Shown piece after piece: positions 25,790 through 28,939 of a stretch of 64,000 nucleotides of DNA. Each line of letters opens with the position of its first letter. Position 1 is the first letter of the stretch. Origin of the DNA: an uncultured bacterium (GTDB taxonomy: Bacteria > Verrucomicrobiota > Lentisphaeria > Victivallales > UBA1829); the NCBI GenBank assembly GCA_902762495.1, contig CACWOL010000013.1, forward strand, positions 1 through 64,000. The letters run 5' to 3'. Position numbers and translations under genes: made by a program. The notes under the pieces were generated by a model. It saw only the letters and a list, made by a program, of their open reading frames with translations, made no database searches and was not told the DNA's origin.

Positions 25790-25888
25790 ATATAGTGTGC
25801 GCTATTTCCCGTCGCGGGAATGCGCCTGTCCTTCGAAACATACAAACATAACATACACAAAACAAACCAATCGAAAGGTAAGCTCAAA

Positions 25889-26791
25889 ATGAAACATTGC
25901 AAACAGGCGTTTACCCTCATTGAGCTGCTGGTCGTCATTTGTATCATCGCGATCCTGGCGTCCATGCTGCTGCCCGCTCTGCAGAGTGCGCGCGAGAGTG
26001 CCAGCACCGCGACCTGCATCAGCAACCTCGGTCAGTTCGCCAAGGCGTACCAGATGTATGCCACCAGCTACAACGACTTCATGCCCGCCCTCACGGACCC
26101 GCAGGGAACCAGCGGCAGCTGCGGATGGGAAGACGCCCTGATGCTGGCGATCGGCCAGGATCCGGCGAAGAACCCTCCCTTCAAGAAGGCTCTGTTCTGC
26201 GACGGCGACGCCTCCAGTGAAACCGCGTCTTCGGGCGGCAACAAGAAGTCCTACGCCCTCAACAACCTCAAGCAGGCCATTCATCCGTACATCCCGGATA
26301 CGCTCGGGAAAAAAGGCGTGATCGGTTTGAAGAAGAACGCCAACATGGGCTACATCAGCGGCAACAAGACGACCTCCGTCTACACCGCTTCCGACCTGAT
26401 CATCATCGGCGAATGCCCCACCGAAAGCAATACCATCGGCAATGCGAAATTCAGCGCCTCGGATGCGGCCAGCAACTCCGGCACCGCCAGCGCCATCCAT
26501 CAGCAGATCTGCATCAAGCCGAAGCGTTACACGACGCACAGCTCCGCCGGTGAGCTGTTCCTCGACGGCCATGCCAAGCACATGAGACCCCAGCAGACCC
26601 TTCCCTCGAAGGCAAAGGATGATGGAAAAACGCAGATCGACGGCAATTTCTTTATTGAGACCAAGACTTCCTACTCCGACGGCACCAAGAAGCTCGCTTC
26701 CACCGCCTGGGGAAGCTGGACGGACTGCCCGAATCGCAAAGTAGGAACTGATTGCGAAGGTGAATCCGCCGGCACCTGCAGAAAGAAATAA
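25889..26791 (+). CDS. Type II secretion/type IV pilin-like pseudopilin
   Basis: A 300-residue prepilin-like protein. A short leader (MKHCKQA) precedes FTLIELLVVICIIAILASML, the methylation and membrane helix motif. The residue before the cleavage site is Ala rather than the usual Gly. The rest is the large extracytoplasmic domain of the DUF1559-like group expanded in Lentisphaerae and Planctomycetes, with TCISNLGQFAKAYQMY and the late LFLDGHAKHM. Six or more Cys could form disulfides. Start at 25889; ribosome binding site GAAAGG. Probably a surface or secretion-system component; no other secretion genes adjoin it. Confidence 0.85.
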   Translation: MKHCKQAFTLIELLVVICIIAILASMLLPALQSARESASTATCISNLGQFAKAYQMYATSYNDFMPALTDPQGTSGSCGWEDALMLAIGQDPAKNPPFKKALFCDGDASSETASSGGNKKSYALNNLKQAIHPYIPDTLGKKGVIGLKKNANMGYISGNKTTSVYTASDLIIIGECPTESNTIGNAKFSASDAASNSGTASAIHQQICIKPKRYTTHSSAGELFLDGHAKHMRPQQTLPSKAKDDGKTQIDGNFFIETKTSYSDGTKKLASTAWGSWTDCPNRKVGTDCEGESAGTCRKK

Positions 26792-26860
26792 TATCTGAAT
26801 ATGCCTGACGGGATTCCGCGGTCGCGGCATCCCGCAGATAAAAAGCATTGACAGTCAGAT

Positions 26861-26893
26861 GGCTCCGAGTGTTTTCGGAGCCGTCTTTTTTTT
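26861..26893 (+). terminator. Terminator of the pseudopilin gene
   Basis: 8-bp stem GGCTCCGA/TCGGAGCC (26861-26868, 26875-26882) followed by a run of T. Confidence 0.85.
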
Positions 26894-26927: not shown

Positions 26928-26955
26928 TTGACTTTTCTTTGACGCATGATATAGT
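26928..26955 (+). promoter_or_regulatory. Promoter of the structured-leader operon
   Basis: TTGACT (26928-26933), 16-bp spacer, extended -10 TGaTATAGT (hexamer 26950-26955). Confidence 0.75.
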
Positions 26956-26961
26956 ATTGGA

Positions 26962-27096
26962 AATAAAGAATCCGGGGCGGCATGAAGCCGCTGTCGGGGA
27001 TGCAGAAGCATTCAGCCCCCCGGATTCCGCACGAAATTTCTTCACAACCGCCTCATGACGAGGCAATGTTTCCCCGAAAGGAACAAGGAGGCCAAC
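26962..27096 (+). ncRNA. Highly structured 5' leader, candidate riboswitch
   Basis: The 135-nt leader contains a perfect 10-bp helix GAATCCGGGG/CCCCGGATTC (26968-26977 with 27018-27027) closing two small hairpins, CGGC-ATGAA-GCCG (26978-26990) and ATGC-AGAA-GCAT (27000-27011), i.e. a three-way junction. A second GGGG (26996-26999) can compete for the C-run. Downstream, GCCTC (27050-27054) can pair either with GAGGC at 27060-27064 or with GAGGC at 27088-27092, which is part of the ribosome binding site AAGGAGG. This has the form of an aptamer plus translational switch. It matches no riboswitch class I know; the ligand is unknown. Confidence 0.55.
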
Positions 27097-27450
27097 ATGG
27101 CATGTTTCACCGCCCCTCTCGCCGCCGCAATCGCAGCCGGAGTCGCCCGCCGCACAGTCGCGCACCAGGAATCGTCCGAAACCATCAGCTGGGCCACGAA
27201 GCTGGGCTGGCTTGAAAAGCTCTCCTTCGGCGGATGCGCCCTGCTCGCATTCGAACACATCTGGCACGGCGAGATCATCTTCCAGTTCCCGTTCCTGACC
27301 GGAGTCCGCGACGGCAACACCGCGGAAGTCCTGCGCGAGATCGCGACGGTCGGCGGCGCCATGACGGCGCTCATCCTCGCCGTCTGGATCGGAATGCTGA
27401 TCGTCAGCTCCGCCATCGTCAAGCGCAAAACCGCTGTTGCGGAGGGATAA
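27097..27450 (+). CDS. 118-aa membrane protein under structured leader
   Basis: A 117-residue protein: short N-terminus MACFTAPLAAAIAAGVARR, a polar stretch, then two membrane segments (SFGGCALLAFEHIW and MTALILAVWIGMLIVSSAIV). The conserved-looking FEHIWHGEI has two His and a Glu at the membrane border, possibly a metal or haem site. I recall similar MACF-starting proteins in anaerobes but no function. The start is behind a strong AAGGAGG. It probably shares a transcript with the aldo/keto reductase 55 bp downstream, so a redox-linked role is possible. Confidence 0.6.
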   Translation: MACFTAPLAAAIAAGVARRTVAHQESSETISWATKLGWLEKLSFGGCALLAFEHIWHGEIIFQFPFLTGVRDGNTAEVLREIATVGGAMTALILAVWIGMLIVSSAIVKRKTAVAEG

Positions 27451-27505: not shown

Positions 27506-28939
27506 ATGAATCGAAGAGAGTTTATCAAAGAGACCGCCGCGCTCACCGCGCTCGCCGCGATGTCCCGCCTCGCCGCGCAGACAGGCGTCGCTCCGGCAGA
27601 CGCGAAATCGTCCGAGCCTGCGAAAGACGCGGCCAAGAAGGTCACGCGCCGCAAATACAAGAAGACCGATCTCACGGTCCCGCTCCTCGGCTACGGCATG
27701 ATGCGCCTTCCCCAGAAGAACGGCAAGATTGACCGCGAGGAAGCGCAGAAGCTCGTCGACACGGCCATGGCCGCCGGGCTGAACTACTTCGACACCGCCC
27801 AGCCGTACCACAACGGCGAAAGCCAGCAGTTCCTCGGCGAGGCGATGAAGAAGTACGACCGCAAATCCTACATGATCGCCACCAAGCTCCCGCTCTGGTC
27901 GCTCCGCAGTCTCGCCGAGGCGGAGACCACGTTCAAGGGCCAGCTCGAAGCCTGCAAGACGGATTATTTCGACTTCTACCTGATGCACGCGTTCAACGCG
28001 AACAGCTTCCGCACCTTCGAGAATCTCAAGCTTTACGATTACTTCAAGAAGCAGAAAGACGCCGGAGTCATCAAGCATCTCGGCTTCTCCTTCCACGATT
28101 CCGCGCAGGCTCTCGAACCCATCGTCAACGCGCACGAATGGGATTTCGTTCAGATCCAGCTCAATTTCGTCGACTGGGACAATCAGACCAATGCCAAGCG
28201 CATGTACGAATTCCTGACCTCGAAGGACATCCCCGTCATCATCATGGAGCCGCTTCAGGGCGGCAAGCTCGCCACGCTTACCCCCGCGGCCGTCGAGGTC
28301 CTCAGAAAGGCCGATCCGAAGGCGTCCGCGGCGAAATGGGCGTTCCGTTACGCCGCCTCGCTCCCGAACGTCCTCACGGTCCTCAGCGGCATGACCACGA
28401 TGGAAGTGCTGAAGGAAAACATCGAGACCTTCACCGACTTCAAGCCGCTGACCGACGCCGAGCGCAAGGTCCTCGACGAGGCGCGCGACGTGTATCTGGG
28501 CGTCTCCAAGAGTCGCGTCCCCTGCACGACATGCAGATACTGCGTCAATGAATGCCCGGTCAAGATCGAGATTCCCGCAGTATTCACGGCTTGGAACGAC
28601 TTCTGCGAAAAGAAGGATGAGGCCGCGTTCAAGGAAGCCTACAATAAGCTTTCCGTCAAGGCGAGCGCCTGCATCGGGTGCCGCCGTTGCGTCAGAAGAT
28701 GCCCGCAGCAGATCGATATCCCGACCGAACTCCAAAAGATCGCACAGGCCGCGGGCGACAATGCCGGCGGAAACCGTCGCGGCGGTCGTCAGGGCGGCGC
28801 CGGTGGTCCCGGAGGCCAGCGTCCCGGCAGCGGCATGGGCGGCGGCTTCGGCGGAGGCCAGCGTCCCGGCGGCTTCGGAGGAGGCATGGGCGGCGGCATG
28901 GGCGGCTTCGGCGGCGGTCAGCGTCCCGGCGGCCGCTGA
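27506..28939 (+). CDS. Exported aldo/keto reductase with two 4Fe-4S clusters and Gly-rich tail
   Basis: A 477-residue protein. A twin-arginine-type leader (MNRREFIKETAAL) suggests export in folded form. The aldo/keto reductase barrel (about residues 45-330) has the tetrad positions in FDTAQPYHNG (D, Y), ATKLP (K) and LMHAF (H). A ferredoxin domain follows with CTTCRYCVNECP and CIGCRRCVRRCP, so two 4Fe-4S clusters. The last about 55 residues are Gly/Arg/Gln/Pro repeats (units such as GGGQRPGG), not part of the family. The start at 27506 follows GAGG. It likely passes electrons between clusters and an unknown substrate. Confidence 0.85.
   Translation: MNRREFIKETAALTALAAMSRLAAQTGVAPADAKSSEPAKDAAKKVTRRKYKKTDLTVPLLGYGMMRLPQKNGKIDREEAQKLVDTAMAAGLNYFDTAQPYHNGESQQFLGEAMKKYDRKSYMIATKLPLWSLRSLAEAETTFKGQLEACKTDYFDFYLMHAFNANSFRTFENLKLYDYFKKQKDAGVIKHLGFSFHDSAQALEPIVNAHEWDFVQIQLNFVDWDNQTNAKRMYEFLTSKDIPVIIMEPLQGGKLATLTPAAVEVLRKADPKASAAKWAFRYAASLPNVLTVLSGMTTMEVLKENIETFTDFKPLTDAERKVLDEARDVYLGVSKSRVPCTTCRYCVNECPVKIEIPAVFTAWNDFCEKKDEAAFKEAYNKLSVKASACIGCRRCVRRCPQQIDIPTELQKIAQAAGDNAGGNRRGGRQGGAGGPGGQRPGSGMGGGFGGGQRPGGFGGGMGGGMGGFGGGQRPGGR

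Follow-up and report, generated by a model that had tools for sequence, protein, structure and literature searches.

We favour, with modest confidence, an explanation in which positions 26962-27096 of the window (the whole 64,000-nt stretch of DNA analyzed here) are the leader of an operon for a small membrane protein and an Fe-S aldo/keto reductase, and form part of a family of attenuation RNAs that has not been described before and is probably read by the protein DUF3842 (PF12953). The elements of this account that were computed are a hairpin array, its covariation, its overlap with terminators, its target genes, and its co-occurrence with DUF3842.

Results

Architecture of the window leader

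The features of the leader and of the two genes that follow it are collected in Table 1. Its outermost element is a 10-bp helix, P1, in which GAATCCGGGG at 26968-26977 is fully complementary to CCCCGGATTC at 27018-27027, and the hairpins H1 and H2 lie inside it. Downstream, the GCCTC at 27050-27054 has two possible partners, either the GAGGC at 27060-27064 or the GAGGC at 27088-27092, the latter overlapping the Shine-Dalgarno (SD) sequence of the gene that starts at 27097. An earlier note on this DNA had described this helix, its two hairpins, and both pairings of the GCCTC, and we found all of them where it had placed them.

A promoter with an extended -10 element lies at 26928-26957 (the search gave two such sites compared with 0.3 expected), so that transcription is expected to start immediately 5' of P1 and the first hairpin. 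The extended -10 sequence TGATATAGTAT is found upstream of all 17 homologues in the genus. The leader also starts a separate transcript, since the gene on its 5' side (25877-26791) has its own terminator (26857-26886). That gene encodes a type IV pilin-like or DUF1559-related protein.

Table 1. Features of the leader and of the genes downstream, in coordinates of the window
Feature	Position	Strand	Remarks
Promoter	26928-26957	+	-35 TTGACT at 26928-26933; extended -10 TGATATAGTAT at 26947-26957; 10/12 matches
Outer helix P1	26968-27027	+	26968-26977 with 27018-27027; closes a three-way junction that contains H1 and H2
H1	26978-26990	+	GCGGC-ATGAA-GCCGC; pentaloop ATGAA at 26982-26986; 4 bp inside P1, extendable by 26977 and 26991
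H2	26998-27013	+	GGATGC-AGAA-GCATTC; tetraloop AGAA at 27004-27007; covariation
H3	27050-27064	+	GCCTC-ATGAC-GAGGC; 5' arm has an alternative partner in the SD region, 27088-27092; covariation
H4	27068-27084	+	GTTTCC-CCGAAA-GGAAC; position kept in genus leaders and clostridial arrays
Shine-Dalgarno	27085-27091	+	AAGGAGG; read from sequence
Regulated gene (MACF start)	27097-27450	+	117-aa small membrane protein; invariant EHxxHGE
Second gene	27506-28939	+	Aldo/keto reductase with two 4Fe-4S motifs; PF00248, E = 8.7e-45; Fer4_10, E = 5.4e-8

The 71-nt core (26962-27032) has a folding energy of -35.0 kcal/mol compared with -21.6 +/- 3.0 kcal/mol for dinucleotide shuffles (z = -4.5), and the 201-nt window leader contains two NGAA-loop hairpins with stems of at least 5 bp, against 0.06 expected in shuffles (p = 0.003). 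Leaders generally carry one to four such hairpins each, compared with 0.01-0.06 in shuffles. At minimum energy, the window RNA retains the 10-bp helix but folds the P1 interior differently, with pair probabilities of only 0.01-0.04 for H1 and H2, and these two hairpins therefore rest on comparative evidence. When considered in isolation, H3 is ahead of the SD pairing in the window by approximately 4 kcal/mol, with probabilities of roughly 1.0 and 0.001, respectively. Given the rearranged P1 interior and the strong advantage of H3 over the SD pairing, energy alone is not proof of a switch. The comparative support is far stronger than these single-sequence fold and shuffle statistics.

Relatives of the leader in the genus

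The window's genome also holds a paralogue of the gene at 27097, and genes of this type, which we refer to as MACF, are present in one or two copies in 11 of the 13 genomes of the window's genus of rumen Lentisphaerae. The genus has two arrays, one located 5' of MACF and a partner protein and the other, that of the window, 5' of MACF and the Fe-S aldo/keto reductase. Sixteen genus leaders could be aligned from the extended -10 through the start codon; H1, H2, H3, and H4 are kept in these leaders with compensatory changes in their stems, and the H2 core GC-AGAA-GC is nearly invariant. In relatives from the genus, H1 and H2 are flanked by imperfect helices related to P1 (mean z = -2.8 for the 11 that could be tested). 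Neither the outer helix nor the three-way junction was seen in clostridial arrays, and both were observed only in the window's genus. For the second G-run that the earlier note had proposed as a competitor for the same C-run, inspection of the genus leaders by eye showed no conservation.

In one species of the genus (G024; L008/L029), a long unrelated structured stretch replaces the MACF leader, and the H1-H2 array is absent; H3/H4-like hairpins may be its sole remnant. This genome has MACF, and DUF3842 is absent within 4 kb upstream of it.

The same hairpin array in other phyla

A covariance model built from the genus leaders (R1) matches clostridial loci directly 5' of the homologous gene (for example, L065 at E = 5.6e-7, the E-values of all these models being rough), and the clostridial leaders, when inspected by eye, contain hairpin arrays with NGAA or NNGAA loops. 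A second model (R2), trained on the genus leaders and five clostridial leaders, detected the untrained loci L161, L158, L164, L085, L093, L192, L191, and L187, all at the expected places. A third model (R3) was used to scan 147 and 295 whole genomes from two clostridial orders, many of them incomplete metagenome assemblies, and gave 19 matches, 11 of which were untrained. Matches that fell within coding sequences or next to unrelated genes (L063 495-594, L069 1381-1508) were attributed to chance, as were weak R1 matches in other genera of the window's family (L108-L127). The match at L165 was misaligned and was removed from the alignment (A6).

Compensatory changes in homologous leaders, which the earlier note had suggested looking for, were found in an alignment of 26 sequences, in which 17 of the 19 modelled pairs change on both sides and 90.8% of cells are paired. 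The covariation score is 0.712, whereas sliding the partners gave 0.09-0.14 and shuffling gave 0.315. The figures for the modelled pairs are inflated because the alignment had been fitted to the structure, but both controls are still far lower. Both-sided changes occur at 5/5 pairs of H1, 6/7 of H2, and 6/7 of H3, whereas H4 was left out of the models. In addition, a scan recommended by the earlier note found no Rfam 15 family above its gathering threshold over the array in the window or in 30 relative loci. The stretch is almost certainly a conserved cis-acting structured RNA.

The core comprises a maximum of four hairpins (H1-H4), in which the NGAA or NNGAA loops are conserved and the stems covary. 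The structured leader proposed in the earlier note is upheld, but at its core lie GAA-loop hairpins in an array rather than a compact three-way junction. The loops of H2 and H4 drift in some arrays (TGAA, ACAA, CGAG). At L175, L179, and L218, which are among the ECF-S arrays, ACAA replaces AGAA in some or all hairpins, and the array loop may drift along with its cognate factor. L088 carries an additional duplicated H1-like hairpin with TGAA loops 5' of H2 (4001 minus 183 to minus 125), which suggests that array length is variable.

Overlap with the expression platform

A terminator-like stem and T-run lie downstream in 30 of the 34 clostridial arrays. In most clostridial arrays, the 3' arm of H3 is also the 5' arm of the terminator, which often starts within the H3 loop (GAAGGTATGC...), and H4 is situated inside the terminator. 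H3 and the terminator are mutually exclusive as a result of this shared arm, which is the anatomy of an antiterminator. Two exclusive structures, one of them an intrinsic terminator, define a transcription attenuator, and this arrangement is present in most clostridial arrays but not in the window, L061, or L065. Control by attenuation in Clostridia is very likely.

No terminator was found in L061, L065, or the Lentisphaerae leaders, including that of the window. The competition between H3 and SD sequestration is the only comparable one in the window, which makes a translational platform there plausible, and we propose translational control through this competition tentatively. The GCCTC/SD switch, which the earlier note had presented as the platform, can form in 12 of the 16 genus leaders, but the GAGG is gone and SD sequestration is lost in the other four (L004, L005, L006, L017), and Clostridia use an intrinsic terminator instead. 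Of the riboswitch layout that it described, what survives is a structured leader close to the promoter, conserved and with a hairpin that can compete with an expression-platform pairing, its three-way junction being a genus-level feature.

Genes downstream of the arrays

The 117-aa MACF protein has no Pfam or NCBIfam match, and its EHxxHGE motif could bind a metal. The aldo/keto reductase gene adjoins MACF in several Clostridia as well. NCBIfam models identified larE, larB, and larC 3' of clostridial arrays, usually after MACF and a second small membrane protein. MACF (27097-27450 in the window; L043 4001-4375) and the MTLL...FEYAE...DPKG family (L043 4414-4731) form a conserved pair that precedes larE-larB-larC in Clostridia, Spirochaetes, and Elusimicrobia; no Pfam or NCBIfam model covers either family.

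Other arrays lie 5' of transport genes. The array at L165 precedes CbiM/NikM with CbiQ, that at L191 precedes a FecCD permease, and those at L181, L185, L187, L192, L217, and L218 precede an ECF-S component (PF12822, tested for L217, L218, and L175, with the remaining ECF-S loci assigned by likeness). At L219, the gene downstream encodes a solute-binding protein whose matches to the NikA and Opp4A models fall short of the cut-offs, and at L227 it encodes another ABC solute-binding protein, named by eye. The 11 untrained matches of the genome scans are accounted for by genes of lar operons (L221-L226, L228), ECF-S components (L217, L218), and the proteins at L219 and L227. It is highly probable that the common theme is synthesis of the nickel-pincer nucleotide (NPN) together with uptake of nickel or related metals, with such metals as the presumed cargo of the ECF-S and FecCD components and of the solute-binding proteins. 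This theme comes from the relatives, and the earlier note could not have seen it.

Co-occurrence with DUF3842

Among 60 informative MACF loci, a DUF3842 gene is adjacent in 11/11 with an array and in 0/49 without one (Fisher test, 3e-12 without phylogenetic correction). In the R3 scans, DUF3842 is encoded in 10/10 matched genomes of the 147 and in 9/9 of the 295, compared with base rates of 58/147 and 90/295 (148/442), for hypergeometric probabilities of 5.5e-5 and 1.7e-5, respectively; these co-occurrence tests are uncorrected for shared ancestry and gene transfer, and the models were partly trained on loci adjacent to DUF3842. Eight of the 19 array genomes are training loci, and the untrained genomes alone give 3/3 (chance 0.06) and 8/8 (chance 6e-5). 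Five untrained matches are unlinked to DUF3842, and all five are in DUF3842-positive genomes (chance 0.0055).

Read-through is not what links the two, since DUF3842 is divergent from the array in L226 and is on a separate contig in G135, G126, G142, G409, and G390. In the cases that we read (for example, L065), the DUF3842 gene ends 5' of a separate promoter that starts the array, a layout that suits a regulator encoded next to its target. The window's genome has DUF3842 adjacent to the paralogous array (L209). Approximately half of DUF3842 genes have no adjacent array, and there may be other reasons for the shared occurrence of lar genes and DUF3842. DUF3842 has no recognisable RNA-binding domain, a profile search of the PDB gave no credible relative, and an AlphaFold model from 16 sequences was too poor to define a fold (pLDDT 55; no Foldseek match at E < 0.001). 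On balance, we lean toward DUF3842 as the protein that reads the array. The fuller proposal, that it represents a new class of antiterminators which bind RNA, sense nickel or NPN, and control cofactor synthesis and nickel import in Clostridia and Lentisphaerae by reading arrays of NGAA-loop hairpins, stands at about even chances.

Discussion

Our results suggest a model in which a trans-acting factor, most likely DUF3842, would recognise the NGAA or NNGAA loops of tandem hairpins (H1-H2 and H3-H4) in a manner that depends on nickel or NPN status. In Clostridia, this recognition would stabilise H3 and make its 3' arm unavailable to the terminator, which would allow transcription of the lar and nickel-uptake genes. 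The terminator is missing in the window's genus, where H3 would instead consume the GCCTC arm that could otherwise pair with the SD sequence, giving translational control. In this scheme we infer the binding of DUF3842 to the RNA, the signal, the direction in which the signal acts, and the translational step in the window. Small-molecule sensing had been inferred in the earlier note, but a protein-read element fits at least as well, since the co-occurrence with DUF3842 is perfect, the hairpins are simple and repeated, and there is little conservation beyond the loops.

A true riboswitch would instead treat the paired hairpins as small tandem aptamers for Ni2+, NPN, or a precursor, with DUF3842 as a mere pathway partner. 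Such an RNA would account for the single metabolic theme of the targets, metal riboswitches exist, and the guanidine-II riboswitch has a similar form, consisting of two simple hairpins with conserved loops. However, conservation in the arrays is limited to the loops and closing pairs with no multi-element core, the GAA loops are not self-complementary, and the loop bases differ among targets. A riboswitch would also make a coincidence of both the 19/19 co-occurrence and the 11/11 adjacency of DUF3842, and we consider it unlikely, although it is the strongest of the alternatives. Guanidine-II (mini-ykkC) itself resembles the arrays in that two small conserved-loop hairpins lie 5' of small membrane-protein genes, and we considered it because of the ACGAA loops. 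It was rejected, as the H2 loops are AGAA, TGAA, or ACAA and the H1 loops ATGAA, ACGAA, or AAGAA rather than ACGR with a C-G closing pair; the arrays also precede lar and nickel-transport genes, not guanidine exporters. The NiCo (czcD) riboswitch shares the transition-metal theme, but it is a four-way junction rather than a hairpin array and is associated with efflux rather than with uptake and cofactor synthesis. The Moco RNA motif likewise uses one leader RNA for cofactor synthesis and metal transporter genes (PMC2408646), although its structure is unrelated and its cofactor different. None of these three RNAs is matched by the arrays in Rfam.

It is improbable that the arrays are non-switching elements of mRNA stability or processing, such as an RNase III site or a protective leader. 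The window leader lacks a terminator and its H3 is stable alone, and a stable 5' structure near the transcription start can protect an mRNA. Conversely, H3 and the terminator are exclusive in most clostridial arrays, and the arrays are confined to a few functionally related operons. A stability element could account for the window leader but not for arrays that carry a terminator.

We regard it as still less probable that the reader is another operon product (MACF or a Lar enzyme), an unidentified regulator, or a small RNA with CUUC loops. Autoregulation is common, and the GAAG carried by the array loops could pair with a CUUC-bearing RNA. However, arrays are also found 5' of operons without MACF (L158, L164, L225), and the stretches read at L165, L191, L217-L219, and L227 contain no lar genes, so that no one target gene is shared by every array.

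Finally, the arrays are most unlikely to be targets of an ANTAR-domain antiterminator of the EutV, NasR, or AmiR type, which we rejected as the general factor on the basis of the loop consensus and missing proteins: dual hairpins a few nucleotides apart beside a terminator are the ANTAR layout, but in ANTAR targets both hairpins have six-nucleotide loops in which the first base is A and the fourth is G (PMC3369931), unlike the NGAA/NNGAA arrays, and an ANTAR protein (PF03861), although present in 11/14 and 14/22 of the clostridial genomes tested, is missing in the other 3/14 and 8/22 and in all genomes of the window's family (0/36). ANTAR targets nonetheless resemble the arrays in general form, with paired short hairpins whose loops are conserved and which are likely protein-read, and with a hairpin that shares bases with an intrinsic terminator, as in most clostridial arrays but not in the window. 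The arrays differ in having 4- or 5-nt loops and two hairpin pairs, the second of which spans the terminator.

A search of the open-licence literature found no description of RNA-level control of NPN synthesis or of a function for DUF3842, and we know of none. For both, the analysis offers a testable hypothesis, consisting of a previously undescribed family of RNAs whose switch is defined, a candidate regulator that can be named, and a list of targets. The results also tie MACF and its partner, a pair of uncharacterised small membrane proteins, to lar genes of gut and rumen bacteria, a connection relevant to the questions of which enzymes use the NPN cofactor and how its nickel is supplied. 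LarC is encoded in the window's genome, where it appears as two adjoining matches (G000:C12 9783-11084), as it also does in G025, and larC is possibly split or frameshifted in these two genomes.
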